Assembly (NCBI GenBank): GCA_012839765.1
Contig: DUMW01000022.1
Span: forward strand, 1 to 57,769
Length of the DNA stretch: 57,769 nt
Direction of reading: 5' to 3'
Origin: Bacillota bacterium
GTDB taxonomy: Bacteria > Bacillota > Limnochordia > DUMW01
Part shown: positions 231 through 20,850 of the stretch, piece after piece
How positions within the stretch are numbered: the first letter of the stretch is position 1
Layout: each line of letters starts with the position of its first letter
The notes under the pieces: model-generated
The model's input: only the letters and a program-made list of their open reading frames with translations
Told to the model about the DNA's origin: nothing
Database searches by the model: none
Position numbers and translations under genes: made by a program

Positions 231-323
231 GATCTCAACGATAAAGGCAAACCCATCGTGAGGTGGGGACGCAAAGCCTCGGGCCTACTGTCAGAGTAGG
301 AAGCCGGGTTACCGAAAGAGACT
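231..323 (+). promoter_or_regulatory. Cyclic di-GMP-I (GEMM-I) riboswitch
   Basis: The stretch has the GEMM-I core in order. It starts with AAGGCAAACC (244-253), then a stem CCCATC/GGTGGG closed by the GNRA tetraloop GTGA. GGGACGCAAAGCC (266-278) follows, then a second hairpin CCTACT/AGTAGG, and finally GCCGGGTTACCGA closing the first helix. TCTC (233-236) can pair with GAGA (318-321) as the outer base of P1. The family binds cyclic di-GMP and controls motility and biofilm genes; the Clostridioides difficile flgB leader is a known precedent. It lies about 90 bases before flgB, with a terminator-like hairpin between, which fits transcription attenuation of the flagellar operon. Direction of control (off with ligand) is inference. 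Confidence 0.93.
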
Positions 324-340
324 ATCTTTGTATAGTAGGG

Positions 341-390
341 GCAGTCCAGGTCCTTTCCTTTATTGTTGGGATCTGGGCTGCTTCTTGTAT
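341..390 (+). terminator. Terminator-like hairpin of the riboswitch expression platform
   Basis: GCAGTCCAGGTCC (341-353) pairs with GGATCTGGGCTGC (369-381) over 13 base pairs with two G-U wobbles, followed by TTCTTGTAT. The stem is strong but the U-tract is imperfect. It lies between the aptamer and the flgB ribosome binding site, where an intrinsic terminator under ligand control is expected. The competing antiterminator cannot be assigned by eye. Confidence 0.65.
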
Positions 391-807: not shown

Positions 808-1251
808 ATGGGTTTCTTCAGCTCCTTTGATATCAGCGCTTCTGCCCTGACCGCCGAGCGGTTGCGGATGGATGTGATTTCGGCGAATATCGCCAACGCC
901 CAAAGTACCCGCACCGAAACCGGTGACGTATACCGCCGGAAAATGGTGGTATATCGTCCCGCAAGCTATGCGCCCAGCTTCGCCCAGATCCTAGCGGGCT
1001 TGCAGGGGGACAAGGCGGCGGTGTCCGGCGTACGGGTGGCGGCCATCGTGGAGGACCGGTCAGAACTGCGCCGGGTCTATGAACCGGGACACCCCCACGC
1101 GGACCCCGAAGGCTATGTCACCTATCCCAATGTGGATGTAATTCGGGAAATGGTGGATATGATCGGAGCGGTCCGGGCCTATGAGGCCAATGCCACGGTG
1201 ATTCAGGCGGGTAAGACCATGGCCCAAGCGGCCCTGCAGATCGGCCGATAG
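808..1251 (+). CDS. flgC: Flagellar basal-body rod protein FlgC
   Basis: A second rod protein of 147 residues, three bases after flgB. The N-terminal heptad-rich helix and the SANIANAQSTRT segment (about residues 27-38) are the rod-family motif, and the C-terminal half (VDVIREMVDMIGAVRAYEAN, about 111-130) is the FlgC/FlgG C-terminal helix signature. The start ATG at 808 follows GGGAGACGATAATCC. The protein polymerises with FlgB, FlgF and FlgG to make the drive shaft. Synteny flgB-flgC-fliE is typical of Firmicutes. Confidence 0.95.
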   Translation: MGFFSSFDISASALTAERLRMDVISANIANAQSTRTETGDVYRRKMVVYRPASYAPSFAQILAGLQGDKAAVSGVRVAAIVEDRSELRRVYEPGHPHADPEGYVTYPNVDVIREMVDMIGAVRAYEANATVIQAGKTMAQAALQIGR

Positions 1252-1265
1252 GGAGGGATGCTGGG

Positions 1266-1559
1266 ATGAGAGTCGAGAATATTCGTCCGTTACAGATCGA
1301 AATCCAGCAGCCCCTTAACCAGCGGGTGCAGGGAAATGGACGTAGTTTTGCCTCGTTCCTCAAGGAAGCGGCAGAGGAACTTTTGCACAGCCAGCGGGTG
1401 GCCCATGAGGAGGCTTTGGCTTTGGCCCTTGGCCAAAGGGACGATCTGCACAATGTGATGCTGACAATGCAGAAGGCAGAGCTGAACTTGCAGCTTGTCA
1501 TTCAGATCCGGAACAGAGTAGTAGAAGCTTACCAAGAGATTATGCGGATTCAAGTTTAA
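1266..1559 (+). CDS. fliE: Flagellar hook-basal body complex protein FliE
   Basis: A small 97-residue protein in the canonical position after flgC. The conserved FliE pattern is visible: SFASFLKEA near residue 29, DLHNVMLTMQKAELNLQLVI near 61-80 and RNRVVEAYQEIMRIQV at the C-terminus. FliE is the adaptor between the MS-ring and the proximal rod and is needed early for rod export. ATG 1266 is preceded by GGGAGGGATGCTGGG; the nearby ATG at 1258 is out of frame. Confidence 0.95.
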   Translation: MRVENIRPLQIEIQQPLNQRVQGNGRSFASFLKEAAEELLHSQRVAHEEALALALGQRDDLHNVMLTMQKAELNLQLVIQIRNRVVEAYQEIMRIQV

Positions 1560-1575
1560 AATACCCAAGGATTGA

Positions 1576-3123
1576 GTGGCTCTTATGGAAATGTTCCAGC
1601 AGCTATTAGGCAGATTAAACGCGTTACCCCGTTGGACGAAAGTGTCCCTTGGGATTGGCCTGGTGGTCTTCATCGGGTTGGTGGTGGGCCCTATCCTTCT
1701 GTCCGGACGTCAGGAGTTGGTTGCCCTCTTTACTGGTCTGGATCCTAGGGACTCCGGGGAGATTGTGCGCAAGCTGGACGAACAAGGCATTCCTTACCGT
1801 CTCAGCGACCAGGGCAGGACCATCCTTGTTCCCCAAGACCAGGTGTATAAACTCCGGATTGACCTTGCCGCGGAGGGCTTACCCAGCGGTGGAGTGGTGG
1901 GGCTGGAAAGCTTCAAGGAAGCTAGTTTTGGCAGCACCGAGTTTGACCGGAGGGTCCAGTACGCCGCAGCCTTGCAGGGGGAACTGACTAGGACTTTGAG
2001 GCAATTGGAGGAAGTGGAAGACGCCCGGGTGCACCTGGTGATTCCCGAGCAGAGCATTTTCCTCAGGGATCGCTATGAGCCCACCGCTTCGGTGTTGGTT
2101 AAGCTGCGGCCTGGACGGACCCTGAGCGAATGGCAGATTCGGGGAATTGTGAACCTGGTGGCCTACAGTGTGGAGGGTATGAAGCCCAAAAACGTCACCG
2201 TGGTGGACACCCAAGGGAACACCTTGTCTGCTTTCCTGGCGGAGGACGGGGTCTTCCAGGTATCCGGTATGCAGATGCTCACCCAGTTTCAGCTGCAGCA
2301 GCAATATGAGCGCCATTTGGAGGATCGGCTCCGTGGTCTTTTGGAGCAGGTCTTCGGTTTCGGTCGAGTGGTGGCCCGGGTGAGTGTCTCCATGGACTTC
2401 GATTACCGGGAGATCACCAGTGAGGTTTTCGAACCCGGGGAAGAGGGGCAATTGATCCGCAGTGAGCAGTTGTATGAAGAGACCTTCCGGGGTAGCACCG
2501 AGATTCCCGGGGGGATTGCCGGCATCAGTTCCAATATCCCCACCTATGAGCAGGCCGAGGGAAGTACGGTGGGGGATTACGCCAAAAGCGACATTACCCG
2601 GAACTATGAGTTGAATCGGCATGTGGAAAGGACCATCGTCGCGCCAGGCAAAGTTACCAGTTGTTCCGCCGCGGTTTGGATTGATGGGGAACTGACCCCG
2701 GAACTGGAACAGCAAGTGCGGGAGACGGCTCTGGCCACCTTGGGTCTTGGGGACCGGGTACCGTACCAGGTAGCGGTCTACTCCACTGCCTTTGCTGCCA
2801 CCCCCTTCGATCAGCCAGATATTTGGGAAGAGCCGGTGGTAGAACCCGTACGTGATTATCTGCCCTGGGCCCTATTCGCCGCCGCATTAGCAATAATTAT
2901 TATTCTCGTTATAGTTCTGATAAGGCGGCGGAAGCATGCACCGGCGGAAGAGAGCGCAGTTCCCGAGTGGTTGAAGGCTGCCATCGAGGCGGCCGCCGAT
3001 GACGGCGCTTCACAGGAAGCAAGGAATACGCAGCACGACCTACAACAGGAAATTTCTCGGATGTACAAGGAGCAGCCGACGCAAGTAATAGATGCTTTAC
3101 GAGCCTGGTTGGGGGATGTATGA
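1576..3123 (+). CDS. fliF: Flagellar MS-ring protein FliF
   Basis: This 515-residue inner-membrane protein forms the MS-ring that houses the export gate and anchors the rod. A first membrane segment lies at about residues 22-43. The YscJ/FliF ring-building domains span roughly 45-400, and a second membrane segment lies at about 428-450. The cytoplasmic tail ends in a short helix (about 491-515) that binds FliG. The GTG start at 1576 follows AAGGA with a tight spacing; ATG 1585 is an alternative. The length matches the family. Confidence 0.96.
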   Translation: MALMEMFQQLLGRLNALPRWTKVSLGIGLVVFIGLVVGPILLSGRQELVALFTGLDPRDSGEIVRKLDEQGIPYRLSDQGRTILVPQDQVYKLRIDLAAEGLPSGGVVGLESFKEASFGSTEFDRRVQYAAALQGELTRTLRQLEEVEDARVHLVIPEQSIFLRDRYEPTASVLVKLRPGRTLSEWQIRGIVNLVAYSVEGMKPKNVTVVDTQGNTLSAFLAEDGVFQVSGMQMLTQFQLQQQYERHLEDRLRGLLEQVFGFGRVVARVSVSMDFDYREITSEVFEPGEEGQLIRSEQLYEETFRGSTEIPGGIAGISSNIPTYEQAEGSTVGDYAKSDITRNYELNRHVERTIVAPGKVTSCSAAVWIDGELTPELEQQVRETALATLGLGDRVPYQVAVYSTAFAATPFDQPDIWEEPVVEPVRDYLPWALFAAALAIIIILVIVLIRRRKHAPAEESAVPEWLKAAIEAAADDGASQEARNTQHDLQQEISRMYKEQPTQVIDALRAWLGDV

Positions 3124-3124
3124 G

Positions 3125-4129
3125 ATGAAGACACGCATGTCGGGGTTACAAAAAGCAGCAGTGCTGATGATTTCCCTTGGAGCGGACCTGTCCGCGTCCA
3201 TGATCCGCCAGTTGGATCCCACCGATGTGGAAGCCCTGGCGGCGGAGGTGGCCTCCACTAAGAGCGTGGACACGGAGACCCGACAGGCCGTTTTGCAGGA
3301 GTTTCGGGACATGTGCTTAGCCTTCGATTACGCCTCCCGGGGTGGTATCGATTACGCCCGGGCCATTTTGGAGAAGGCCATGGGACGGCAACAGGCGGAG
3401 GAGATCCTCTCCCGCCTGAAGAGCCGGTTCCAGCAGCGTCCCTTTGAATTTGCCCGGCGGGCTTCGGTGGATCAACTCCTCAGTTTCCTAGAGGGAGAAC
3501 ATCCCCAGACCGTGGCCCTCACCCTGTGCCACTTAAGTCCCGGTCAGGCGGCCGCCATTTTGGCCGAGCTGCCGCCGGAACAGCAGGCTAACGTGGCCAA
3601 AAGGATCGCCAGTATCGACCGGATTGCTCCCGATGCGGTGGCTTTGGTGGAACAAGCCCTCAAGGAGAAGCTCGCTTCCTACGAAGGTCAGCATGTAAAC
3701 GTCTCCGGGGGTATCGACGCCATCGTAGACATCCTGAACCGGGTGGACCGTACTACGGAAAAGGCGATCCTGGATCGATTGGCCCAGAATGATCCCGACT
3801 TAGCCGAAGAGATCCGGGAACGGATGTTCGTCTTTGAGGATATCATCTTCCTGGACGATCGGGCAGTCCAGCGGGTACTGCGGGAGGTCAGTTCCCGGGA
3901 TATCGCCTTGGCCCTCAAGACCGCCAGCGAAGATGTGGCCAATGTCATCTTCAACAACATGTCTTCCCGGGCTGCCGAGGCTCTTAAGGAAGATATTGCA
4001 GTGATGGGCCCCGTGCGACTACGGGAAGTGGAAGAGGCCCAAGGTCGGATTGTCAATATCATTCGTCGGTTGGATGAACTGGGCGAGATCGTCATCGCCC
4101 GGGGAGGGGAGGATACCGTCGTTGTCTAG
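3125..4129 (+). CDS. fliG: Flagellar motor switch protein FliG
   Basis: FliG is the upper C-ring protein that binds FliF and takes torque from MotA. The 334-residue product has the N-terminal FliF-binding domain (GLQKAAVLMISLGADLS), the middle domain with EHPQTVALTLCHL near residue 125, and the C-terminal torque helix DDRAVQRVLREV with the alternating charges that contact the stator. ATG 3125 lies two bases after the fliF stop, which indicates translational coupling; a longer start at 3092 would run inside fliF and give an extra non-conserved leader. Confidence 0.96.
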   Translation: MKTRMSGLQKAAVLMISLGADLSASMIRQLDPTDVEALAAEVASTKSVDTETRQAVLQEFRDMCLAFDYASRGGIDYARAILEKAMGRQQAEEILSRLKSRFQQRPFEFARRASVDQLLSFLEGEHPQTVALTLCHLSPGQAAAILAELPPEQQANVAKRIASIDRIAPDAVALVEQALKEKLASYEGQHVNVSGGIDAIVDILNRVDRTTEKAILDRLAQNDPDLAEEIRERMFVFEDIIFLDDRAVQRVLREVSSRDIALALKTASEDVANVIFNNMSSRAAEALKEDIAVMGPVRLREVEEAQGRIVNIIRRLDELGEIVIARGGEDTVVV

Positions 4130-4847
4130 CTTAGTGAAGGGTCAATTTGTTTGTAAGGTGCAAAACGGCAGTGTTACCTATGCCCTGTATCCGAAAGAGG
4201 TACGCACCCTGGAGGAGATTCGCCACGAACTGATGGAAATCCAGCAAAAACTGGCGGAAAAGAAACGGCACCTCCAACAGGAATTGGCCAGGGAGAAGGC
4301 CATGGTGTTGGCCCAGGCCCAAGAAGAGGCCGAGGGGATCGTGGCCGCAGCCAAGGCCGCCGCGGACGAAATCCGGGAAACCGCCAGGGAAGAGGGTTTC
4401 TCTGCGGGGTACGCGGAAGGCTTTGCCCAAGGCCAGGCAAAGGCCCAGGAGCTCATCGATCAAGCCCAGCGGGTTTTGGACGCGGCGGTGGCCGACCGAC
4501 GGCGTAAGATGGAGGAGTTGGAGCCCCAATTGATCGGGCTTCTGTGTGAGCTTGCTGGCAAGCTGGTGTCCTATCAGGCCAAATTCGACGACGATGTGTT
4601 GGCCGGGATTATCGAAGGGGTGCTCACGGCCGCGGAACAGGCCCGGCAGATTACCCTCCGGGTCCATCCTCACCGGGTGGCCTTGACGAGGGAACTTACG
4701 GCCCAGCTGCCCTACGAGGTGGCAGTGTTGGGCGATGACACTTTGGGTCTTGCTGATTGCTATCTAGAGTCGGATATCGGGGAGTACGATGGCCGGCTAA
4801 TCAGTCAAGTGGCGCGGCTGAAACAAAGACTGATTGAGACGGCGTAG
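4122..4847 (+). CDS. fliH: Flagellar assembly protein FliH
   Basis: FliH is the peripheral stalk-like regulator of the export ATPase FliI. The 241-residue product has a long charged Ala/Glu/Gln coiled coil (about residues 30-125) with a glycine-spaced stretch (GYAEGFAQGQAKA), then the conserved FliH/HrpE C-terminal domain with two-helix plus beta structure. The start is ambiguous. TTG 4122 overlaps fliG by eight bases and has GGGAGGA at a good distance; GTG 4134 is the alternative. A start at 4050 inside fliG is rejected because it adds unrelated sequence. Confidence 0.88.
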   Translation: MSSLVKGQFVCKVQNGSVTYALYPKEVRTLEEIRHELMEIQQKLAEKKRHLQQELAREKAMVLAQAQEEAEGIVAAAKAAADEIRETAREEGFSAGYAEGFAQGQAKAQELIDQAQRVLDAAVADRRRKMEELEPQLIGLLCELAGKLVSYQAKFDDDVLAGIIEGVLTAAEQARQITLRVHPHRVALTRELTAQLPYEVAVLGDDTLGLADCYLESDIGEYDGRLISQVARLKQRLIETA

Positions 4848-4857
4848 GAGTTTAGCT

Positions 4858-6162
4858 ATGGAGTTGTTGACCAAGTACCGTTCACGGATCAGGGAAGTAG
4901 ATCCCATCGTCCGTCTGGGGCGAGTGACCCGGGTGGTGGGGATCATTGTCGAGTCCATCGGGCCCGATGTACAGGTAGGCGAGTATTGCCTCATTGAAAC
5001 CGGCGAGGGCCAGGAGCCCATCGGTGCGGAAGTGGTTGGTTTTCGGGATGGGCGCATTTTGCTCATGCCCCTAGCTGAAATGGATGGTATCAAGCGAGGC
5101 AGTCGGGTCATTGCCACCGGCGGCCCCCTGAAGGTCCAGGTGGGAGAGGCCCTCTTGGGCCGGGTGGTGGATGGCTTGGGACGCCCCATCGACGGCAAAG
5201 GACCCCTTACCGGTTCCTGGCGTTCGGTAAACGGACGGGCGCCGGAACCCTTGAGCCGGGAGGTTATTGATGAACCCTTGTCCTTAGGGGTTCGGGCCAT
5301 TGATGGTCTACTTACCATTGGTAAGGGCCAACGGATCGGCATTTTCGCCGGTAGTGGTGTGGGTAAGAGCACCCTCATCGGAATGATCGCCCGGAATTGC
5401 GCCGCCGATGTGAAGGTCATTGCCCTGGTGGGGGAACGGGGGCGGGAAGTGAAGGAGTTTGTGGAAAGTCAGCTTGCCGCAGGCCAGGAATCGGTGGTGG
5501 TAGCCGCCACCAGTGACACTCCCCCCTTGATTCGACTGAAGGCCGGCTTTACTGCCACCACCATCGCAGAATACTTCTGCAATCAGGGGGCCGACGTGCT
5601 TTTGATGATGGATTCGGTGACTCGTCTGGCCATGGCCCAAAGGGAAATCGGCCTCAGTGCTGGGGAACCTCCCACCACCAGGGGCTACACCCCCTCCATG
5701 TTCAGCCTTCTGCCCAAGCTGATGGAGCGGGCGGGAAAGGCGGAACGGGGGAGTATCACCGGGATTTACACGGTGCTGGTGGAAGGAGACGATTTTAACG
5801 AACCCGTCTCCGATACAGCCCGGGGAATTCTGGACGGACACATCGTCCTTACCCGGAGACTGGCGGAACAGGGCCATTTTCCGGCCATTGATGTTCTGGC
5901 CAGCATCAGTCGGTTGATGCCGAAGCTGGTCAGTAAAGAACACTTGGTCAATGCCCGCAAGGTGGTTAAGCTTCTGGCCGCCTACCGCGAGGTGGAGGAC
6001 TTGATCCAAGTGGGGGCCTACAAACCGGGCAACAACCCGGAGACCGACTTGGCGGTGGAGATGTATGGTCCCTTGAACGGATTTCTGCAACAGGACCAAG
6101 AGGAAGCCATACCCTTTGAGGAAACCTACCAGCAGCTACAAGCCCTGGTGGGACACCTGTAG
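4858..6162 (+). CDS. fliI: Flagellar export ATPase FliI
   Basis: This is the F1-beta-like ATPase that unfolds and delivers substrates to the flagellar export gate. The 434-residue protein has a Walker A loop (FAGSGVGKST, about residues 163-172), Walker B strand VLLMMDSVTRLAMAQREIG near 245-265, and the PPTTRGYTPSMFSLLPKLMERAG segment that marks FliI/YscN ATPases. ATG 4858 is preceded by TAGGAGTTTAGCT. In most operons fliJ follows; here the next gene is fliK after only 34 bases. Confidence 0.96.
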   Translation: MELLTKYRSRIREVDPIVRLGRVTRVVGIIVESIGPDVQVGEYCLIETGEGQEPIGAEVVGFRDGRILLMPLAEMDGIKRGSRVIATGGPLKVQVGEALLGRVVDGLGRPIDGKGPLTGSWRSVNGRAPEPLSREVIDEPLSLGVRAIDGLLTIGKGQRIGIFAGSGVGKSTLIGMIARNCAADVKVIALVGERGREVKEFVESQLAAGQESVVVAATSDTPPLIRLKAGFTATTIAEYFCNQGADVLLMMDSVTRLAMAQREIGLSAGEPPTTRGYTPSMFSLLPKLMERAGKAERGSITGIYTVLVEGDDFNEPVSDTARGILDGHIVLTRRLAEQGHFPAIDVLASISRLMPKLVSKEHLVNARKVVKLLAAYREVEDLIQVGAYKPGNNPETDLAVEMYGPLNGFLQQDQEEAIPFEETYQQLQALVGHL

Positions 6163-6196
6163 ATAGAAGAGAACTGAGAGGGAAAGGAGGTGAAAA

Positions 6197-9004
6197 ATGA
6201 TGGAATTATCCCTGGCCATTGGGTCAGTACACAATCTGGTGGAACAGCTGGCACCGGGACAATCCACTAAAACTTCGAAAGAACACTTTCAAGCCACCCT
6301 GGCTGGGATCTTGGAGCTTTTGGTTCGGGGTGAGGCCAAGAGGCCTCCGGAACAGGCCTTGAAACAGCTTAAGTTGCCCATTAAGGGATTGAATGCTACT
6401 GGGGATCAGGAGATACCCCTGGATCCCAAGGAACTCTTGCAGGCGGTACTGGCCGTACCCATAGGGATGAGTCCCCTGGAGACTGTGGAGTTGGTGCCGG
6501 CCAAGGAAGGAGAAGGGGTTGCCATTGAACCCATCGGTGTTGGAGATCAAGTTTCTGTCCAATCTGCCAAGGAGGCTATGGTACAGCCCAGGTCCTTTGT
6601 CCATGGGCCCGAGATGCTTAGTGACCTGCCGGTGGCCTTTACAGCCCCCTCCGAGGAAGGGGTGCGCAACCCCCAAGCCCCAAAGATGCCACTGGCAGGA
6701 GCCGGGGATCCGGCACTGGAAACCTTCCCCACGGTCGACCCCAGAGGGACGGAATTGGAACTGGACAGGGTCCAGTCCGTAGGGGAGGAAGAGGTAAGCC
6801 TCCTGTTCCCAGATTCCGTGGGGGAAGGGTCAAGGGAGACCACGGTACAGCGGCCACCCTTAACCCAGGGGGTGGAAGGATCGGTACCGGGCATGGTGCC
6901 TAAGGAGACTCCCTTGGAGGGTCCCCAGGGGATGCTGGTACCCAAGTCTTCCCAGTCCCCAGATCTTCTCCGAAGCCGTGGGATGGTCCAACAGGGAACC
7001 ATCCTGGATCAGAAAACCGAGTGGGAGTCCGGTTCCTTGTGGCAAGCCCTAGGGGAGAGGTTGGTGGTAGAGGTAGCGCCTGGACCAAGGGAGTTTACCC
7101 TTTCCCCAGAAAGACCCCGTCGTAATCACTGGGTTCCCGGAGAGCTGCGGTCCAGTCAACCCTCGGGACCCCGGGAACTAGGGATCCGGGTCAATCCACA
7201 GCCACATAGACCCTTGGGGCAAGCGACCATCCCGGAGGTGGAGGCCTTCTCGACTTCTCAAGTAGCTTCCCCGGAGGAGACCCCGCGGGTGCAAAGGCCG
7301 GTGGATCTTTCGGTCTTCCCGGAGCAAGTCCTAGAAAGGGAACTGTTGGTTTCGACGGTGTCAAGGAATAGGGAAACCTTCAACCTCGTCGTTGGCGGCC
7401 AAAGGGAGGATACACGGCCTAGGGAAGTTGGGGAGAGGGTCCTTGTCCAGGAGCCCGCTACTGTGGTTTTTGAGGTGGTGCCATCTCCCAAAACGCTGGA
7501 GATACCTCTGATGATGCTTGGGTCCCGGGATCTTACCCCGGTGGAGGACCTCACCCGACAAGAGGAAGACATAGCCCATGGGGAACCTTTGGTTTTCGTG
7601 GAAGAAGAGCAAGGACAACCCCAACCGGTGCGCATGAAGACTCCTGTCCTGGTGGAGACAAGTTCCGGTATCGAGGTGCCAAGGGGAGGATCCCAACGGG
7701 TGGACACCGTCCCTTCCGAGGATACTCCAGAGCAGAACGGACAGGTTTTGGAGATGGAAAGGAGCCGCTTCTTACCGGAAGCTTTAGAGGGTGTAGCCTT
7801 TATTGAGGAGACAAGCTTCGCCGAGGAGATAAGCTCTCCGGAATTGGCAAAGGTCCAGACTGCGGAACCGGAAGGGCAAAGGGTTCGGGAAGAAGGGCCG
7901 TGGTGGATAGTTCGGGAACCTAGCCCGGAGCCAGCACCCCGGGCCGTATCAAACCCAGTGGCAACACCACAGGGGGACCGAGGCTTTGAGCCTACGTTGG
8001 ACGTGCCCCCACAGGCCCCAGCCCAAGTCTTGGACAGAGCGATTTCCAGAGGGCCTTTGGAAGAAGGAACGCAACCCTTGTCCGGGCCGGCTACCGAGCA
8101 ACCCAGGGAAGACGCTTCGGGCCAGAGAACGGCACCGGCGTCGGCGCAAGTGCCCCAACCGGAGCAGTTTACCGACCGGGTCATCCCGGAACAAAGGGTA
8201 GTGGAGCCGATGGGGCAGGCAAACACCACCCAGCCGGTGGTGACCGAAGTGGAACCGAAGGCTGCGGAAAGGATCGTAGCCCACGGTTCCCGGGAGCAGC
8301 CTTTCTCCGGAGAAAGGCCCAACTCCCGGCTGATCGGGGGGACGGAAGCGAAGGAGGCTTGGGTGGAAGACGTTTCCGTCGTCACTTTTCTGGACCAAAA
8401 CCCTGCGGCCCGTGAAGAGACCGGTGATCACCGGCGGGATGAAACACCACTGGGAGCCCGGCCGGAGGTCGTTCGGAGGAGCGAACCGGTTTTGCAGGAG
8501 CCTGCCTATGGAACAGAAGCGTTGCAATCTCCAGGTTCCCGGACGCCGGCGGTTTCGCTGGAGGGGGCTTTAGGAAAGGCCAGCGGTGAACCAGGGAACT
8601 TCCCGGTAGAGGAACTGGTGGAGGAAATCGTGCAGGCGGCCCAGCTGGTCTCGGCGGGGGAGGAACGGACCTTCCATTTGAAACTGGCCACCGACAAGGC
8701 GGAGATTAAGGTGGTTCTCAGTTTGGCCAATGACCGGATCAGCGGCCGGTTTGTGGTGGAAGAGGCGGCCTTGCTGCAGGTTTTGGAGGAGCGCTTGCCG
8801 GAACTGAGGGAAAGCTTCACCCGGGCCGGCGTGGATTTGGCCTCCTTTGATGCTTTCCTGCACCAGGAGCAAGGTCAACAGCATAGACAGAGTTTTTCTG
8901 CTGAACCTTGGCCCACTGTCGGATTGGCGGTGGTGGTGCCCCAGGTACAGCACCGGAAACCGACCAGGCAACTGGTTGGCACCAGTATCAATTTGCTAGC
9001 GTAG
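6197..9004 (+). CDS. fliK: Flagellar hook-length control protein FliK, unusually long
   Basis: The start follows a near-perfect AAAGGAGGTGA. FliK is the secreted ruler that measures the hook and switches export specificity through its C-terminal domain. Only the C-terminal part (about residues 800-900: FHLKLATDKAEIKVVLSLAN followed by GRFVVEEAALLQVLEERLPELRE) matches the Flg_hook domain. The first 780 residues are a Pro/Glu/Gln/Val-rich low-complexity linker. At 935 residues it is about twice the usual FliK length. Position between fliI and flgD supports the call; the linker cannot be identified by sequence. Confidence 0.85.
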   Translation: MMELSLAIGSVHNLVEQLAPGQSTKTSKEHFQATLAGILELLVRGEAKRPPEQALKQLKLPIKGLNATGDQEIPLDPKELLQAVLAVPIGMSPLETVELVPAKEGEGVAIEPIGVGDQVSVQSAKEAMVQPRSFVHGPEMLSDLPVAFTAPSEEGVRNPQAPKMPLAGAGDPALETFPTVDPRGTELELDRVQSVGEEEVSLLFPDSVGEGSRETTVQRPPLTQGVEGSVPGMVPKETPLEGPQGMLVPKSSQSPDLLRSRGMVQQGTILDQKTEWESGSLWQALGERLVVEVAPGPREFTLSPERPRRNHWVPGELRSSQPSGPRELGIRVNPQPHRPLGQATIPEVEAFSTSQVASPEETPRVQRPVDLSVFPEQVLERELLVSTVSRNRETFNLVVGGQREDTRPREVGERVLVQEPATVVFEVVPSPKTLEIPLMMLGSRDLTPVEDLTRQEEDIAHGEPLVFVEEEQGQPQPVRMKTPVLVETSSGIEVPRGGSQRVDTVPSEDTPEQNGQVLEMERSRFLPEALEGVAFIEETSFAEEISSPELAKVQTAEPEGQRVREEGPWWIVREPSPEPAPRAVSNPVATPQGDRGFEPTLDVPPQAPAQVLDRAISRGPLEEGTQPLSGPATEQPREDASGQRTAPASAQVPQPEQFTDRVIPEQRVVEPMGQANTTQPVVTEVEPKAAERIVAHGSREQPFSGERPNSRLIGGTEAKEAWVEDVSVVTFLDQNPAAREETGDHRRDETPLGARPEVVRRSEPVLQEPAYGTEALQSPGSRTPAVSLEGALGKASGEPGNFPVEELVEEIVQAAQLVSAGEERTFHLKLATDKAEIKVVLSLANDRISGRFVVEEAALLQVLEERLPELRESFTRAGVDLASFDAFLHQEQGQQHRQSFSAEPWPTVGLAVVVPQVQHRKPTRQLVGTSINLLA

Positions 9005-9013
9005 GGAGGGAGA

Positions 9014-9421
9014 ATGATGTCTGTATCGGCGGTCAATCGGCTAACGGGAGGGCAACCTCAGACCACTGTGGAGAGCGCGGCCATGGCCGGTGAGGATTTC
9101 TTGAGACTGATGCTGACCCAGCTGCAGATGCAGGATCCTACTGAGCCGTTGGACAACTCCGAGCTTTTGCAGCAGTTTCTGGCCATGACTACTATCCAGT
9201 CGCTGCAGGAGTTGTCCACCAGTAATAATCGGATTATGTATGATTCCTCCAAGTTGCTGGGTATGCACTTCCTAGGCCGCGAGGTCACGGTGGTAACCCA
9301 GGATGAGGAGATCAGCGGTCTGGTGAAGGGCCTCCGTTACGACGCGGGCAAGGTATTCTTAGTCATTGACGGCAAAGAGTACGCTTTGAGTGATGTGGTG
9401 GCGTTGTTGGAAAACCGTTAG
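9014..9421 (+). CDS. flgD: Flagellar hook cap / hook assembly protein FlgD
   Basis: FlgD caps the growing hook and is lost when the hook is complete. The 135-residue product has the N-terminal FlgD signature: DFLRLMLTQLQMQDPTEPLD (about residues 28-47) and ELLQQFLAMTTIQSLQEL. It then keeps a short tail equivalent to the beginning of the FlgD C-terminal part, as in the small FlgD proteins of Firmicutes. ATG 9014 and 9017 both fit the GGGAGGGAGA site. It lies directly downstream of fliK, the usual order. Confidence 0.93.
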   Translation: MMSVSAVNRLTGGQPQTTVESAAMAGEDFLRLMLTQLQMQDPTEPLDNSELLQQFLAMTTIQSLQELSTSNNRIMYDSSKLLGMHFLGREVTVVTQDEEISGLVKGLRYDAGKVFLVIDGKEYALSDVVALLENR

Positions 9422-9432
9422 GAGGCATTGCC

Positions 9433-9795
9433 TTGATCCAGAAAGTCGGTAATGTACGGACGCAGGTGGGGGTACAGGCGCCGGGCCGTGGGGCTTCCGA
9501 ATCCTTTGAGCAAGTGCTCCGGCAGACCTTGCACCCCCAGAGTACGGTGCAATTTTCCGCCCATGCCAAACGCCGGATGGCGGTACGGAACGTTACCCTT
9601 TCACCGGAGCAGTTGCAACGGCTAGATAGCGCTGTGGGGCAGGCGGCGGCCAAGGGGCTCAAGGAACCCCTGGTGCTGATTGAAGATCTGGCCCTGGTGG
9701 TTAGCGTCACGAACCGCAAGGTGATCACGGTGATCAAGGGTGGAGACGCAGAACAACGGGTATTTACCAATATCGATGGGGCGGTGATCGGCTAG
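9433..9795 (+). CDS. TIGR02530-type flagellar operon protein
   Basis: A 120-residue cytoplasmic protein with the pattern QFSAHAKRRMAVRNVTLSPE (about residues 40-59), then a region rich in LVLIEDLALVVSVTNRKVIT and ending in VFTNIDGAVI. These match the conserved small protein encoded between flgD and flgE in many Firmicutes and spirochaetes (TIGR02530). Its function is not well defined; location suggests a role in hook assembly. The TTG start at 9433 has GGAGG seven bases upstream, overlapping the flgD stop. Confidence 0.88.
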   Translation: MIQKVGNVRTQVGVQAPGRGASESFEQVLRQTLHPQSTVQFSAHAKRRMAVRNVTLSPEQLQRLDSAVGQAAAKGLKEPLVLIEDLALVVSVTNRKVITVIKGGDAEQRVFTNIDGAVIG

Positions 9796-9847: not shown

Positions 9848-9875
9848 CCCATTGACTTCAAAGGAGGTTGACGCA

Positions 9876-10739
9876 ATGCTAGGTTCACTTTATTCCGGTG
9901 TCACGGGGATGCGGGTGCATCAACAAAAACTAAATGTGATTGGTAACAACATTGCCAATGTGAATACCATCGGGTTCAAGAAAGATCGGGTGGTCTTCCA
10001 GGAGACCTTTGCCCGGACCTTGCAGGCGGCCTATGAGCCGGCGGGCAACCGGGGTGGTGTAAACCCCATGCAGGTGGGTACAGGGGTGGCCTTAAGCAGC
10101 ATCGACACCATCCACGAGCAGGGGGATCTGGCTAGCACCGGCCGGATGCTGGATCTAGCCATCCAAGGGGAAGGGTACTTCATCGTGGCCCAGCCCAACG
10201 GAGTAGTCTATACCCGGGCTGGCTCCTTCGATATTGACGCCGCGGGCAACCTGATCAATCCAGCGACGGGAGGTTTTGTCCAGGGCTGGAACGCGGTGGG
10301 AGGCGTCATTGACACTTCCGGTGCCCCCACGAACATCACCATTGACCCCAGGCATCTGGGATTGGGCGGGGGCAGTGCCAGCGAGCGGTTGGAGCAACTG
10401 ACCATCGATGACCGGGGTCGTCTCATCGGTGTGTTGGCGGATAACACCCCCATCATCCTGGGACAGGTGGCCTTGGCGATGTTCCCCAATCCCGCCGGGT
10501 TGAACAAGGTGGGTGGCACCAGCTTCAGTCAGAGTCTGAACTCCGGTGCTCCCCAGGTGGGCGAACCCCAAACCGGTGGTCGGGGCCGGATCATCCCCGA
10601 GAATTTGGAGATGTCCAACGTGGATCTCGTACAAGAATTCACGGAAATGATTACCACTCAACGGGGGTTCCAGGCCAACTCCCGAGTGATTACCACATCG
10701 GATGAACTGCTCCAAGAGACCCTGAACATCAAGCGGTAG
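9876..10739 (+). CDS. flgE: Flagellar hook protein FlgE (short form)
   Basis: FlgE polymerises into the external hook. The 287-residue product has the N-terminal rod/hook motif (GNNIANVNTIGFKKDRVVFQ, about residues 26-45), the FlgE/FlgF/FlgG core (IQGEGYFIVAQPNGVVYTRAG) and the C-terminal NLEMSNVDLVQEFTEMITTQ signature. It is much shorter than enteric FlgE and lacks a large D2 domain, close to the short hook proteins of Firmicutes. ATG 9876 has AAAGGAGG nine bases upstream; an earlier codon at 9852 would include that site and is rejected. Hairpins flank the gene on both sides. Confidence 0.92.
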   Translation: MLGSLYSGVTGMRVHQQKLNVIGNNIANVNTIGFKKDRVVFQETFARTLQAAYEPAGNRGGVNPMQVGTGVALSSIDTIHEQGDLASTGRMLDLAIQGEGYFIVAQPNGVVYTRAGSFDIDAAGNLINPATGGFVQGWNAVGGVIDTSGAPTNITIDPRHLGLGGGSASERLEQLTIDDRGRLIGVLADNTPIILGQVALAMFPNPAGLNKVGGTSFSQSLNSGAPQVGEPQTGGRGRIIPENLEMSNVDLVQEFTEMITTQRGFQANSRVITTSDELLQETLNIKR

Positions 10740-10745
10740 TTTGGT

Positions 10746-10770
10746 GGGAGGACCTCGGGCGGGTCCTCCC
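10746..10770 (+). other. Intercistronic hairpin between flgE and motA
   Basis: GGGAGGAC (10746-10753) and GTCCTCCC (10763-10770) form a perfect, GC-rich eight-base-pair stem with a nine-base loop, six bases after the flgE stop. There is no run of T after it, and motA follows 17 bases later. It may attenuate, block 3' exonucleases or mark a processing point. Confidence 0.55.
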
Positions 10771-10787
10771 GCAAAGAGGTGTAGACA

Positions 10788-11600
10788 TTGGATAGAGCAA
10801 CCATAATCGGTCTTCTTCTTGGGATTGTCGTTATCGTGGGTGGAATTCTCTCCAGTGATGGTTTTGGGGGCTTTTGGAACTGGCCCTCGGCGGTCATTGT
10901 GGTCGGAGGGACACTAGCGGCCACGGCCGCTGCCTTCCCATGGGAACAGCTGAAGCGGATCCCCCGTGCCATCCGTACAGTGCTGCGGCCGGACAATTTC
11001 CAAGTGACGGAGATCATTGACCAGATTATCCAGATGGACGATCTGGCCCGGCGCCACGGGCTTTTGGCCCTGGATGAGCAGCTGGATGATATTGCAGATT
11101 CCTTCCTGCGCCGGGGCGTGATGCTGGTGGTGGACGGGACCGACCGGGAGGATTTGGAGTATACCCTGGAGACGGAGATCATGCGTACCAAGCAGGAGAT
11201 CAGCGGGGATTGTCAAGTCTTTGAGACCATGGCGGGCTATTCACCGGCCTTCGGAATGTTGGGTACTGTCATTGGGTTGGTGAATATGTTGGGGAACCTG
11301 TCGGATCCTGAGTCCATCGCCCCGGCCATGGCGGTGGCCCTCATTACCACCCTGTACGGGCTGATCCTGGCTAACCTTCTGTTCGGCCCCGTGGCTACCA
11401 AGCTTGCCGCCCGGGGGGAGGAGCGGCTCCAGACCATGGAAGTGATCTTCGCGGGGGTGTTGGGGCTGCAGGCGGGAGAAAACCCCCGGAACCTCCGGGA
11501 GTCCTTGGAGGTCATTGCTGGCCTGCGGCGGGAGGTGAGTGACCCTGGTGGAACGGAACGGACAAGGGAGACGCGGGGATCGCTGGAATGGCCTGCCTAA
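10788..11600 (+). CDS. motA: Flagellar motor stator protein MotA
   Basis: MotA is the five-copy stator subunit that couples ion flow to torque on FliG. The 270-residue product has four membrane segments: about residues 4-22 and 30-48, and the pair around 150-172 and 180-200. The conserved AGYSPAFGMLGTVIGLVNML contains the channel proline, and a basic/acidic cytoplasmic loop lies between segments 2 and 3. The TTG start at 10788 follows AAAGAGGTG. Which ion it uses cannot be read with certainty. Confidence 0.94.
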   Translation: MDRATIIGLLLGIVVIVGGILSSDGFGGFWNWPSAVIVVGGTLAATAAAFPWEQLKRIPRAIRTVLRPDNFQVTEIIDQIIQMDDLARRHGLLALDEQLDDIADSFLRRGVMLVVDGTDREDLEYTLETEIMRTKQEISGDCQVFETMAGYSPAFGMLGTVIGLVNMLGNLSDPESIAPAMAVALITTLYGLILANLLFGPVATKLAARGEERLQTMEVIFAGVLGLQAGENPRNLRESLEVIAGLRREVSDPGGTERTRETRGSLEWPA

Positions 11601-12384
11601 ACGTAGCGCCCCCAATTACTGGCTGACGACCTATTCCGACTTGGTGACGCTGTTGTTATGTTTCTTCGTTTTATTGTACAGCTTTTCCAGTTTGGATGTG
11701 CAACGGTTTCACAGCGTCATCCGGGGATTCCAAAGCCTCTTTGGCTCTGGGATCATGGACGGGAGCTCCGGGATGTTTGAGGAGACCGCGGAGATCATGG
11801 ACACTGGCCCCGCCGACTATTCTGCTACGCTCTATGGCCTTTTGAAAAGGGATTGGGAGCAGTTGGCGAAGGTGGAACAGGAACTGGCCCATCTGCTGCG
11901 GCTTAGGGGTTGGGAGGAATTGATCAGTGTTCACCGGGAGGAATGGGGGTTGGTGCTGGGTTTCAAAGACAGCGTGTTATTTGAACTGGGGAAAGCAGAT
12001 TTAACCCCCGAGGCCTTGGGGATCTTAGCCGAGATTAGCCACTTCCTGTCCCAGTGGCCGAATCATGTGCGGATTGAGGGTCATGCGGACAATCTACCGA
12101 TCAATAACGAACGCTTCCCCTCAAACTGGGAATTGTCCACGGCTAGGGCCACTACGGTACTGCGCTACCTGCTGGGGGAAACAGGCTTTGACCCAGAACG
12201 GATTTCCGCAGTGGGTTACGGGGAGTACCGGCCGGTGGCGCCGAACGATACGCCCGAGGGCAGGCAGCAAAACCGACGGGTGGATATTGTCATCCTTCGG
12301 CAGTCCCTGTGGGAGGCCCATGGATTGGATATTGAAGAACTCTTGAGTGGGGAGGAGACGGCCAGTGGCGGAGACGACCAGTAA
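11539..12384 (+). CDS. motB: Flagellar motor stator protein MotB
   Basis: MotB pairs with MotA and anchors the stator to peptidoglycan. The product has the single transmembrane helix NYWLTTYSDLVTLLLCFFVL near residues 26-45, including the ion-binding Asp in YSDLVTL. A linker and the C-terminal OmpA-like domain follow, with EGHADNLPI and STARATTVLRYLL and an NRRVDIVI ending. It overlaps the end of motA by about 60 bases. GTG 11539 is very close to GGAGG; GTG 11548, nine bases on, is an equally reasonable start. Confidence 0.93.
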   Translation: MTLVERNGQGRRGDRWNGLPKRSAPNYWLTTYSDLVTLLLCFFVLLYSFSSLDVQRFHSVIRGFQSLFGSGIMDGSSGMFEETAEIMDTGPADYSATLYGLLKRDWEQLAKVEQELAHLLRLRGWEELISVHREEWGLVLGFKDSVLFELGKADLTPEALGILAEISHFLSQWPNHVRIEGHADNLPINNERFPSNWELSTARATTVLRYLLGETGFDPERISAVGYGEYRPVAPNDTPEGRQQNRRVDIVILRQSLWEAHGLDIEELLSGEETASGGDDQ

Positions 12385-12823
12385 AGTGGCTGGACGCTGG
12401 GGGTTTGTTGTCCTCGTCATCTTTCTTGCGGTGGGGGTGACGGTGGGCTCGGCCCTGTTCGCATATTATCTCATCCTCGGCGAGGTGTCCTTGCCCTTCT
12501 CGGGTAAGGGGGACGTCGCCACCGGTCCCATCGTGAAGTTGGGTGAGTTCATGGTGAACTTCGGTTCGCCGGACCGAATTGGTTATGCCCGGTTCGCGGT
12601 GGAATTGGAGTTGTACGAGAAGAAGGGCGTTGACATGGTGGAGAAGCGGATGGCGGCCCTACGCAACGCCGTGATTTTATACATCAGGGATTGCACCTAC
12701 GACGACTTTGGTAGCAGTGCTAGTCTGCGGCAAGTGGCGGAGGCCTTGATGGACAGGTTGAACAGCATCTTGCCCACGCCCATGATTGCCGACCTGTACT
12801 TTGTTGAATTTGCGGTGCAATAG
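12365..12823 (+). CDS. fliL: Flagellar basal body-associated protein FliL
   Basis: FliL is a single-pass inner-membrane protein that rings and stabilises the stator. The 152-residue product has one transmembrane helix (about residues 13-35, FVVLVIFLAVGVTVGSALFA) and the periplasmic FliL domain, with GEFMVNF and the late ILPTPMIADLYFVEFAVQ ending. GTG 12365 has GGGAGGAG nine bases upstream and overlaps the motB end; an upstream GTG at 12347 lies before that site and is rejected. Confidence 0.92.
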   Translation: MAETTSKVAGRWGFVVLVIFLAVGVTVGSALFAYYLILGEVSLPFSGKGDVATGPIVKLGEFMVNFGSPDRIGYARFAVELELYEKKGVDMVEKRMAALRNAVILYIRDCTYDDFGSSASLRQVAEALMDRLNSILPTPMIADLYFVEFAVQ

Positions 12824-12839
12824 AAGGTAGGTAAGGAAG

Positions 12840-13178
12840 TTGGGAAAGCCACAAGTGGAGATTCGCCCAGTGAAGTTTGTGGAATTTGCCCCGCCGGAGG
12901 GGGCTGACGGGTTGGTGGAACGGGAAGAGATGGTGGATCTACCGGTAGAGGTAGTCTGTGAGTTGGGGGCCACCAGTTTGACCTTGGAGGAGATCGCCCA
13001 GCTGAAGACCGGCTCGGTGATCGTCTTGAACCGGGGAGCCGGCGAGCCCATTCCCCTCAAGGCCAACGGGCGGCAGATCGCCGAAGGAGAGATCTTCCTA
13101 CTGGATAACCGGCTAGCCTGCCGGATTTCCCGGACCACGTTGACAAGACAAGAGGAGCAGAAGGGGACAAAACAGTGA
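12840..13178 (+). CDS. fliN: Flagellar motor switch protein FliN (SPOA domain)
   Basis: A 112-residue protein consisting mainly of a SPOA (FliN/FliM C-terminal) domain: LPVEVVCELGATSLTLEEIAQLKTG then GEPIPLKANGRQIAEGEIFL. FliN forms the base of the C-ring and docks FliH-FliI. Starts at TTG 12840 after GTAAGGAAG. A second SPOA protein (FliY) closes the same operon, so two FliN-type proteins are encoded; they may share the ring or one may be more specialised for export. Confidence 0.9.
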   Translation: MGKPQVEIRPVKFVEFAPPEGADGLVEREEMVDLPVEVVCELGATSLTLEEIAQLKTGSVIVLNRGAGEPIPLKANGRQIAEGEIFLLDNRLACRISRTTLTRQEEQKGTKQ

Positions 13179-13531
13179 AGCTGCCGCAGAGAGGGTTAAT
13201 CTTGGGAGGTTGTGGGGTGCTGGCCCTGGTTTTGGCGCTGGTGTTTCCCCAGGAGGGGGAGCTAGGCTTCTTCCGCCAGCTGTTGATGGTGCTGGCGATC
13301 CTGCTGTTTTTGCTGATGGCCCGGGAGTGGTTGCTGGACAGCCAAGGGGAGGCCAAGTTCCGGCGGGATATTCTGAAGGTGGTGGCCTGGCAGAAGCTTA
13401 GCCCCAGCAGTGGCATCTGCGTGGTGGAGGTTATGGACCGGGTATTGGTGATCGGGTACACCAAGGAGCAAATCCAGCTGCTTTATGCGGTGCCCGTTGA
13501 AGGAGAAAAGAAGGATCGTGAAGATGCGTAA
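13175..13531 (+). CDS. fliO: Flagellar biosynthetic protein FliO
   Basis: FliO is a small membrane protein that helps assemble the FliP ring of the export gate. The 118-residue product has two hydrophobic stretches near the N-terminus (about residues 8-24 and 34-47), then a short cytoplasmic beta domain (KVVAWQKLSPSSGICVVEVMDRVLVIGYTKE, given in part) that matches the FliO pattern of a 'GVCVVEVGDR' motif. The GTG start overlaps the fliN stop by four bases. FliO is poorly conserved, so the call leans on its place before fliP. Confidence 0.82.
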   Translation: MKLPQRGLILGGCGVLALVLALVFPQEGELGFFRQLLMVLAILLFLLMAREWLLDSQGEAKFRRDILKVVAWQKLSPSSGICVVEVMDRVLVIGYTKEQIQLLYAVPVEGEKKDREDA

Positions 13532-14282
13532 GACCATCGGCAAGTACAGTTTGATTCTGCTGGCCTTGGGACTTTGTGTGGCCATTGGATTGGAGGAGGC
13601 TTCTGCCCAGCCGGAGACCCTTTTGGACCTCATCGAGGAGCCGGGTTCCCGGGAGGGCTTTTTGGCCCTGGAGATCCTAGGGGTGCTCACTTTACTGTCC
13701 CTGGCGCCGGCTTTGTTGATTACCCTCACCTCCTTCACCCGGATCGTCATCGTTTTGTCCTTTGTCCGCAGTGCCATGGGCACCCAGCAGCTGCCGCCCA
13801 ACCAGGTGATTATCGGTATGGCGCTGTTTTTGACCTTCTTCGTCATGGCACCGGTGGGTCAAGAGATTAACGATCTAGCCCTGCAACCTTACCTGGCTGG
13901 GGAGCTGAGTTTGTCCGAGGCCTATGATGCCGCCGTTAAGCCTTTGCGGGACTTTATGTTTTCCTTTACCCGGGAGCAGGACTTGGCGGTGTTTGTGGAG
14001 CTGGCGGGGATCGAGGAATTATGGGATGAGGATGATGTTCCTACCTATGTATTGGTGCCGGCCTTCATGGTCAGTGAACTGCGCACGGCCTTTCAGCTGG
14101 GGTTCTTGCTGTTTATTCCCTTCTTGGTCATCGATATGATCGTGGCCAGCACCTTGATGTCCATGGGCATGATGATGCTCCCGCCGGTGATCATCTCCTT
14201 GCCCTTTAAGCTTTTGTTATTCGTACTGGCTGACGGGTGGAATCTGGTGATTAGATCCTTGCTTTTGACGTACCAACGATAG
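13524..14282 (+). CDS. fliP: Flagellar export gate protein FliP
   Basis: FliP is the main pore subunit of the flagellar type III export gate. The 252-residue product has a cleavable signal peptide (about residues 1-23), then four hydrophobic segments. The FliP signatures LTSFTRIVIVLSFVRSAMGT and VPAFMVSELRTAFQLGFLLF are clear. ATG 13524 lies eight bases after AAGGA and overlaps the fliO end by eight bases; GTG 13518 is an alternative. Confidence 0.95.
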   Translation: MRKTIGKYSLILLALGLCVAIGLEEASAQPETLLDLIEEPGSREGFLALEILGVLTLLSLAPALLITLTSFTRIVIVLSFVRSAMGTQQLPPNQVIIGMALFLTFFVMAPVGQEINDLALQPYLAGELSLSEAYDAAVKPLRDFMFSFTREQDLAVFVELAGIEELWDEDDVPTYVLVPAFMVSELRTAFQLGFLLFIPFLVIDMIVASTLMSMGMMMLPPVIISLPFKLLLFVLADGWNLVIRSLLLTYQR

Positions 14283-14292
14283 GAGCGACCGC

Positions 14293-14562
14293 ATGAACGA
14301 GCTTTGGGTAATCAACATCGCACGACAGGCCATCACCACCACGCTCATGGTGGCGGGACCTTTACTGGGGATTGGCCTTTTGGTGGGCCTGGTAATCAGC
14401 ATCATCCAGGCGGTGACCCAGATCCAGGAACAGACCCTGGTCTTTGTGCCCAAGATCCTGGCGATCTTGCTCACCTTGCTATTTCTGGGTCCTTGGATGC
14501 TGCGGATTATGCTGGATTTGGTGCACCGCCTTTGGGTGGACGTCTGGTTGGGGTTGTTCTAA
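14293..14562 (+). CDS. fliQ: Flagellar export gate protein FliQ
   Basis: An 89-residue two-helix membrane protein of the export gate with FliP and FliR. Both hydrophobic helical hairpins (about residues 15-38 and 50-75) are present, and the family motif LVGLVISIIQAVTQIQEQTL lies between them. ATG 14293 follows TAGGAGCGACCGC, ten bases after fliP. Confidence 0.95.
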   Translation: MNELWVINIARQAITTTLMVAGPLLGIGLLVGLVISIIQAVTQIQEQTLVFVPKILAILLTLLFLGPWMLRIMLDLVHRLWVDVWLGLF

Positions 14563-14574
14563 GGGGGAAGGGCG

Positions 14575-15348
14575 ATGGATCTGCAGCTTCATCTAAACCA
14601 TGTCTTCCTGGTCTTTACCCGTACCGCTGGGATTTTGGCCGGCACGCCGGTGCTCAGTGGCCGGACGGTGCCCACGGTGGTGAAAATCTGGGTGACCTTG
14701 ACGGTGGCTTTGTGTCTGGCCCCCATCGTCTCCCTGGAAAGGCCGGTGCCCGCCCACTGGACGGATCTTGTCCAGGCCATCGTGCAGGAGGCACTGATTG
14801 GGATTAGTATCGGCTTTGTGGTGCTCCTCTTCTTCTTGGTTATGCAGATGGCTGGTACTTTCATCGATCTGCCCATCGGCTTTCGGATGGCGGAGATCCT
14901 CAGTCCCCAGGTGGATGCCCGCTCTGCCCCCTTGGGCCAGTTGTATTATCTGGTGGCGGTTTTGATTTTACTGGCTACCGATGGGTACCAGTGGATCTTT
15001 CGGGCGATTGCCGAAAGCTTCGAGCTGTTGCCCCTGCTTACGCCCCCCAGTGGGGTGTGGGCCTCCATGGCCGATGGGTTGGGACGGTTGATCTACCAGC
15101 TTTTCAAGATTAGCCTGCAGATCGCCTTTCCGGTGATGGCGGCCATTTTCGTGGCGGATGTTTTGTCGGGGATTATTGCCCGGGCGGTGCCCCAGATTAA
15201 CATTTTTATCCTGGGGTTTCCCATCAAGATCGTCTTGGGCCTGTTGATGGTATTCTTCACCCTGCCCTATTTTGCCGGCCTATTGCGGGGGGTCTTCGAG
15301 TTCATGGGCCGGATGTTGTTGGAAGTTGTGCTTGCTTTGGGAGGCTAG
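14575..15348 (+). CDS. fliR: Flagellar export gate protein FliR
   Basis: FliR completes the FliPQR export channel. The 257-residue protein is mostly membrane-embedded, with the opening LNHVFLVFTRTAGILAGTPV typical of FliR, a central FIDLPIGFRMAEILSP segment and C-terminal VLGLLMVFFTLPYFAGLL. Start ATG 14575 has GGGGGAAGGG upstream. The order fliP-fliQ-fliR-flhB-flhA is conserved across Firmicutes. Confidence 0.95.
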   Translation: MDLQLHLNHVFLVFTRTAGILAGTPVLSGRTVPTVVKIWVTLTVALCLAPIVSLERPVPAHWTDLVQAIVQEALIGISIGFVVLLFFLVMQMAGTFIDLPIGFRMAEILSPQVDARSAPLGQLYYLVAVLILLATDGYQWIFRAIAESFELLPLLTPPSGVWASMADGLGRLIYQLFKISLQIAFPVMAAIFVADVLSGIIARAVPQINIFILGFPIKIVLGLLMVFFTLPYFAGLLRGVFEFMGRMLLEVVLALGG

Positions 15349-15352
15349 GACC

Positions 15353-16435: not shown

Positions 16436-16449
16436 GGAGGAATGGGCAA

Positions 16450-18495: not shown

Positions 18496-18515
18496 AAGGC
18501 AAGGAAGTGATTGGC

Positions 18516-20033: not shown

Positions 20034-20061
20034 GAAATCAATTTATAGGAGGTAATGCCCT

Positions 20062-20850
20062 ATGATGCGCTCATTATGGATTGCCGGTTCAGGAATGACT
20101 GCCCAGGAGCTGAGTATTGCCACCATCGCCAATAACCTGGCCAACGTGAACACCACCGGCTTCAAGAAGGCCCGTGTGGACTTCCAGGACCTGCTGTACC
20201 AGACGGTGCGGTACGGTGGAACCCCGGTGGTTCAGGGGGCCCAGATCCCTACAGGCATCCAGGTGGGTCATGGTGTGCGGCCGGTGGCCACCCAGAAGAT
20301 CTTCACCCAAGGGGACTACCAACAGACCGATAACCCCTTGGATCTGGTGATTGAAGGCGAAGGCTTCTTCCAGGTCACCTTGCCCGACGGTTCCACCGCC
20401 TACACCCGGGACGGAGCCTTCAAGGTGGACAGCAATGGTCTGTTGGTGACCTCCGACGGCTTTGTGCTGGAGCCGGAGATCCAGATTCCCGCCAACGCCC
20501 TGGATATCTCCGTCAGCACCGACGGGACCGTCTCTGTGCTGACCTCCGATGATGGGGTACCGGTGGAAGTGGGGCAAATCACCCTGGTACGGTTCATGAA
20601 CGCGGCGGGCTTGCGGAACATTGGCCGGAACCTCTTCAAGCAGACTCCCGCCTCCGGTGAGCCCATCTATGGTACTGCGGGACTTGATGGCTTTGGGACC
20701 ATCGCCCAGGGGTACCTGGAAATGTCCAATGTGAAGGTAGTAGAGGAAATGGTGGCCATGATCACCGCCCAGCGGGCGTATGAGGTGAACTCTAAGGCCA
20801 TCCAGGCCTCTGATGAGATGCTGCAGACCGCAAACAACTTAAGAAGATAA
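20062..20850 (+). CDS. flgG: Flagellar distal rod protein FlgG
   Basis: This 262-residue protein has all FlgG hallmarks: [18 protein letters not shown] at the start, [20 protein letters not shown], the [10 protein letters not shown]-like [20 protein letters not shown] and the C-terminus [20 protein letters not shown] then [19 protein letters not shown]. It forms the distal rod that passes through the P- and L-rings. AGGAGG lies nine bases before ATG 20062; ATG 20065 is possible. Confidence 0.95.

Follow-up and report, generated by a model that had tools for sequence, protein, structure and literature searches.

A c-di-GMP-I riboswitch and a sigma-H-type promoter motif precede the flagellar operon of a Limnochordia bacterium and recur across its class

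The closest described counterpart of the leader reported here is the flgB riboswitch of Clostridioides difficile, an OFF switch placed over 29 genes (23 kb), sigD included (PMC6200980, PMC11477304, PMC5386303), and transcribed from a sigma-A promoter (PMC7438776, PMC5386303). Two designs of GEMM-I riboswitch have been described. In Cd1 of C. difficile, a proven OFF switch (PMC9262584, PMC5386303), the terminator consists of two downstream strands, and the antiterminator is formed when the 5' arm of the terminator pairs with the 3' strand of the aptamer; in the ON switch pilM of Geobacter, the terminator includes an aptamer strand (PMC9262584). The present locus shares with Cd1 (Cdi-1-3) a c-di-GMP-I aptamer, a downstream terminator (here a terminator-like hairpin) and a long flgB-first operon with a sigma-28 gene (PMC5386303, PMC6200980, PMC9262584, PMC11477304). 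It differs from C. difficile in the promoter, which is of the sigma-H type instead of sigma-A, and in the stretch 3' of the riboswitch, which is 338 nt long with an invertible switch in C. difficile, whereas about 30 nt separate the hairpin from flgB here.

The window, i.e., the whole stretch of 57,769 nt that was analyzed, is the start of contig C22 in a bacterial genome of 2.56 Mb (121 contigs). Judged from its sequence, the leader is likely to act as a c-di-GMP-I transcription-attenuation OFF switch heading one flagellar operon. The following elements were located in it:

104–134, + strand: terminator-like hairpin (CCTGGG...CCCCAGG, then ATTTTTG), read from the sequence, which would end the upstream gene and insulate the leader
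145–171, + strand: sigma-H-type promoter, an exact consensus match, with -35 GAAGGGATT (145–153), 11-nt spacer CGCGGGAATTT and -10 AGCGAAT (165–171)
237–317, + strand: c-di-GMP-I (GEMM-I) riboswitch aptamer, from covariance-model matches and an alignment that includes 17 orthologous leaders and shows compensatory change at 10 pairs
281–292, + strand: P3 5' strand GGGCCUACUGUC, a candidate antiterminator strand forming 12 bp with 340–353 (2-nt bulge) on folding, non-specific in the swap control
341–381, + strand: attenuator, an intrinsic terminator-like hairpin of 13 bp (341–353 with 369–381) and then UUCUUGU, from the sequence, a shuffle test and folding
401–408, + strand: Shine-Dalgarno sequence of flgB, AAGGAGTG, not within the hairpin, from the sequence

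When the leader was searched with cmscan against Rfam, one complete aptamer of the c-di-GMP-I clan was found; the best match was full length at 237–317 on the + strand (RF03167, 68.7 bits, gathering score 59, E 3.5e-14), and a repeat search of 150–420 returned the same aptamer. The RF01051 model matched 236–316 with 73.5 bits against a gathering score of 35. With both models above gathering, the complete GEMM-I aptamer claimed by the first-pass annotation was confirmed, and the assignment of 237–317 to this riboswitch class can be regarded as firm on the covariance models. The P2 GNRA tetraloop reads GUGA in the window and GAAA in most relatives. The positions that we take to be equivalent to G20, A47 and C92 of Vc2 hold G, A and C. 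The pocket residues GGC, GCAAA and CC are retained in the pattern of c-di-GMP binders, and the G20 position is a selectivity factor among cyclic dinucleotides (PMC9262584). RF03167, which describes the c-di-GMP-I-GGC variant, is nevertheless the top Rfam model of the clan for this aptamer, and on this ground the ligand could be 3',3'-cGAMP or the unknown ligand of the c-di-GMP-I-GGC variants. That reading is scarcely likely and was rejected because the variant residue is missing: according to the cmscan alignment, the window reads the canonical GCAAA where the model consensus is GCGAA. Both the G equivalent to Vc2 G20 and the ligand-pairing C are retained, and the RF01051 score stands against an altered ligand as well. 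The RNA would thus bind c-di-GMP.

The 13-bp hairpin (341–353 paired with 369–381), also named in the first-pass annotation, was upheld, and as a terminator-like element it proved stronger than each of 20 dinucleotide-shuffled versions of the leader. The U-tract that follows it (UUCUUGU) is weak, with the lowest U score among the 18 orthologous leaders, and its loop is long (14–15 nt). These properties favor a hairpin that does not terminate, control being exerted instead through Rho, mRNA decay or translation, or the switch having decayed. Such a reading is rather improbable, as no shuffle matched the hairpin strength, the ribosome-binding site at 401–408 lies outside the hairpin, and clear terminators with U4–U6 are found in the orthologous leaders; the hairpin is more probably a terminator. 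According to equilibrium folding it is present at P = 0.87 anyway, and switching must therefore be kinetic.

To place the leader among its relatives, 61 genomes of the class were compared, of which 49 contain RF01051 matches and 59 contain FlgC. In 18 of the 61, from five families (f1, f6, f9, f12 and f16), a GEMM-I aptamer is found 0.5–1 kb 5' of flgC and on its strand, and direct reading of these leaders showed the order riboswitch, hairpin, flgB to be common to all 18. One further genome (G046, locus L194), in which the GEMM-I match precedes a FlgB-like, apparently broken frame unrecognized by Pfam, was left out of this set. When the 18 flgB-linked aptamers were aligned, compensatory change was observed in 10 of 20 pairs. 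A terminator-like hairpin follows the aptamer in every one of the 18 leaders at a distance of 8–57 nt, and in 13 of them it outscores 19 or all 20 of the shuffles; two were recognized by eye, namely f12 leaders in which the scan was not above shuffles and a GCCCAAGCCCCUGGCUUGGGC-type hairpin was seen. Behind the riboswitch, the order flgB-fliF-fliG-fliI-flgE-motA-motB-fliY-fliP-flhB-flhA is kept to the limit of each contig. Roughly two thirds of the class have no riboswitch upstream of flgB; it is therefore not essential for flagellar control. A c-di-GMP-II riboswitch before flgB was considered and dropped, since no match lay near flgC when positions were compared. GEMM-I also directly precedes flgB in three further loci, in Desulfotomaculum copahuensis (L119), a Clostridia MAG (L115) and a Bacillota MAG (L105), and the Clostridia MAG has a sigma-H-type site scoring 15/15 upstream. 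The other c-di-GMP-I aptamers of the class stand before different genes: the first gene downstream was FapA-like in 8 of 54 cases, encoded an HD domain in 6, a Flp/Fap pilin in 6, CheW, an MCP or curlin repeats in 3 each and GGDEF in 2, and a small secreted protein family was also found, in some cases behind tandem aptamers.

The direction of control was read from this layout. In 18 of 18 leaders the hairpin lies wholly 3' of the aptamer and never uses the aptamer 3' strand, so that a folded aptamer would be no obstacle to it. Very similar GEMM-I aptamers can work as ON or OFF switches, as pilM of Geobacter does in the ON sense (PMC9262584), and the antiterminator of the window lacks statistical support; an ON switch, in which c-di-GMP binding prevents the hairpin and turns the operon on, has therefore to be weighed. 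It is very unlikely, because the pilM terminator is built with an aptamer strand (T+A+H), whereas the hairpin here is entirely downstream in all 18 genomes, and c-di-GMP in general reduces motility; ON-switch logic was dropped on the ground that hairpin and aptamer share no strand. OFF control by transcription attenuation is likely, given a hairpin that avoids the aptamer and an arm complementarity in f6 that follows the logic of Cd1. Six genomes of f6 show complementarity between the 3' strand of the aptamer (CCGGACC...CCAAU) and the hairpin 5' arm (...UUGGGGUUCGG), with pairing energies of -17 to -22 kcal/mol, compared with -8 to -15 kcal/mol when arms or aptamers were swapped between families. 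The corresponding pairing is weaker in f9 and f16 than in f6, and poor in the window (-9.9). As shown by minimum free energy folding of growing window transcripts, P3 is replaced by pairs formed with the arm region once they are 340–360 nt long, and aptamer and terminator dominate from 365–385. The pairing of 281–292 with 340–353 was no better than that of shuffled or family-swapped arms, and since these controls fail to single it out, the window antiterminator was dropped as an established element and is kept as a candidate. Attenuation in the OFF direction, as first proposed, stands as an interpretation of the Cd1-like layout and the orthologous leaders.

Downstream of the leader, 30 flagellar genes were identified with NCBIfam and Pfam, all on the + strand from 415 to 25729, in the following order:

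415–804, + strand: flgB (TIGR01396)
808–9795, + strand: flgC, fliE, fliF, fliG, fliH, fliI, fliK (6197–9004), flgD and a TIGR02530 gene (NCBIfam/Pfam)
9852–18495, + strand: flgE, motA, motB, fliL, fliN, fliO, fliP, fliQ, fliR, flhB and flhA (NCBIfam/Pfam)
18492–19292, + strand: fliA, encoding sigma-28 (TIGR02479, 267.6 bits)
19293–23812, + strand: flgF, flgG, flgA, flgH (L-ring), flgI (P-ring) and flgJ (NCBIfam/Pfam)
23836–25729, + strand: fliM and fliY (CheC and FliN C-terminal domains), the operon end (NCBIfam/Pfam)

The product of 6197–9004 is a long FliK of 935 amino acid residues with a Flg_hook domain near its end (Pfam). Intergenic gaps do not exceed about 80 nt, a sigma-70 scan of 8–27 kb gave no promoter-like site on the + strand, and terminator-like sites in the same interval were at the level of chance (22 against 19.4 expected), in agreement with the 30 co-directional genes without a clear internal terminator described at first pass. 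A GC-rich hairpin (about 25741–25758) lies 3' of the fliY stop (25729), where a gap of 200 nt follows. The reading of 415–25729 as one long operon is supported by these features. None of fliJ, flhF and flhG was recognized within 415–25729, and a genome-wide search gave no FlhF above the cut-off; most Firmicutes flagellar operons differ in this respect. The genes flgA, flgH, flgI and flgJ lie inside the operon, unlike in C. difficile, whose flgB operon, to our knowledge, has no outer-membrane ring genes; the P and L rings are to be expected where a bacterium has an outer membrane. The arrangement of fliY is perhaps also different, and motAB is presumably within the C. difficile operon too. The first-pass annotation had correctly pointed to GEMM-I before the flgB operon of C. 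difficile (PMC6200980, PMC5386303). Its view that the present RNA exceeds that species by also controlling motAB, fliA and further genes was mostly mistaken, since a 29-gene, 23-kb operon including sigD is already controlled there, and the arrangement in the window is therefore not new in kind.

The flagellin genes are on other contigs than the flagellar operon, and one of them has a sigma-28-like site (TAAA...CCGATAA) about 100 nt 5' of its start; riboswitch control of the flagellins would therefore be indirect, and the site is consistent with a cascade in which the riboswitch acts on fliA and fliA on flagellin. Diguanylate cyclases are encoded in the genome, which contains, beyond the flgB leader, a second match to c-di-GMP-I and two to c-di-GMP-II. 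With flagellins on other contigs and further c-di-GMP riboswitch matches present, the proposal of a single master off-switch for motility was too strong. The second c-di-GMP-I riboswitch (locus L159 on contig C23, 1540–1900) directly follows a gene for a GGDEF diguanylate cyclase, and 3' of the riboswitch is a membrane-protein-like ORF of 68 amino acid residues with no Pfam match. The c-di-GMP-II matches are at G000:C27:54171–54254 (72 bits) and C63:12643–12729 (45.5 bits, below gathering).

Sigma-H acts in the transition phase and sets sporulation in motion. The element of the leader overlooked at first pass was its sigma-H-type promoter: positions 145–171 match the published sigma-H (Spo0H) consensus, [AG][AC]AGG[AG]WWW-N11-12-[AG][AG][AC]GAA[AT], with 0 mismatches (PMC4754846). 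The -35, the -10 and the 11-nt spacing are identical with those of the Spo0H/SigH-dependent promoters of Bacillota (PMC4754846), which are known to serve transition-phase, competence and sporulation genes. Exact matches to this consensus occur twice in the window (at 145 and 32718), compared with 0.07 per dinucleotide shuffle; the second (32718–32744) is directly 5' of a D-alanyl-D-alanine carboxypeptidase-like gene (ORF 32771–33931). The first sigma-H candidate, AAGGAATTC at about 194–202 with TGAAGATAA, was replaced by the better, exact site, from which transcription would start near 180. A sigma-70 promoter for the leader was dropped, as a scan of 1–900 found no sigma-70-like site.

The sigma-H consensus RNAGGAWWW/RNNGAATWW was scored at all spacings between 6 and 20. 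In a set made up of 17 of the 18 flgB riboswitch leaders and the doubtful G046, 15 of 18 reached at least 13/15 at spacing 11, compared with 0–7 of 18 at any other spacing. Among 17 riboswitch-free flgB leaders of the class, 9 did so at spacing 11, 6 at 12 and 0–4 at other spacings, while only 1 of 60 GEMM-I leaders of other genes reached the threshold at spacing 11. An AGGAWW-N11-GAA element, which fits the sigma-H consensus of PMC4754846, is kept upstream of the flgB-linked aptamers and missing before most GEMM-I aptamers of other genes. When named Firmicutes loci were picked by FliG, 19 of 70 reached 14/15 at spacing 11 against 0–4 at other spacings, 0–4 with permuted cores and 0 when coding sequence from these loci was scored; Alicyclobacillus, Thermoanaerobacterium saccharolyticum, Lutispora and Orenia are among those with the motif. 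The enrichment before flgB in other Firmicutes was seen irrespective of a riboswitch. In these motif counts related genomes were scored separately although their independence is incomplete, and the choice of sigma type followed inspection of the sequences; the motif result is therefore strong without being proof of sigma-H use.

The genome encodes sigH (327.3 bits against a cut-off of 294.8, TIGR02859), a SigH-like paralogue under that cut-off (G000:C15:8203–8790, 248.7 bits) and spo0A. The two SigH types are widespread in the class; the SigH-like paralogue is kept in most of its genomes, and in several it shares a contig with flgC at a distance of about 80–100 kb. The post hoc choice of the motif family, together with the sigma-A control of flgB in C. 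difficile (PMC7438776), leaves some room for a leader read by sigma-A in which the sigma-H-like motif is coincidental. This is somewhat unlikely in view of the empty sigma-70 scan of 1–900, the exact match where 0.07 were expected in the whole window, the prominence of spacing 11 in 15 of 18 leaders, and an enrichment before flgB in Firmicutes that survives the core, spacing and coding controls. The leader is thus probably read by sigma-H or a SigH-like factor; in the part of the literature covered, no paper was found that describes a flgB operon as driven by sigma-H.

In the mechanism that we propose, RNA polymerase with sigma-H or a SigH-like factor would initiate near 180. At low c-di-GMP, the aptamer would be unlocked, and its P3 strand could pair with the 5' arm of the hairpin, allowing read-through into flgB, on through fliA and to fliY. 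At high c-di-GMP, the aptamer would keep its own strands, the 341–381 hairpin would form, and transcription would end near 385–390. With the operon off, no sigma-28 would be made, and the flagellin genes elsewhere would be shut indirectly.

The riboswitch-flgB layout was already known from C. difficile; what is new here is its recurrence across a class and the sigma-H-type promoter. The C. difficile arrangement is thus not the oddity of one pathogen: it is found again in a distant class whose flagella have outer-membrane rings, and single members of other lineages share it. It is conceivable, though we hold this only tentatively, that flagellar construction in the class, and ancestrally in many Firmicutes, is begun by sigma-H, and that in several lineages a c-di-GMP riboswitch of the same leader vetoes it. 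If the sigma-H reading is true, one leader would join the signals of stationary-phase entry and of sessile life before a 25-kb operon and the sigma-28 cascade. A real sigma-H promoter would also answer what starts the flagellar cascade in Firmicutes without the fla/che control of Bacillus subtilis, and would tie motility directly to the factor of sporulation entry.
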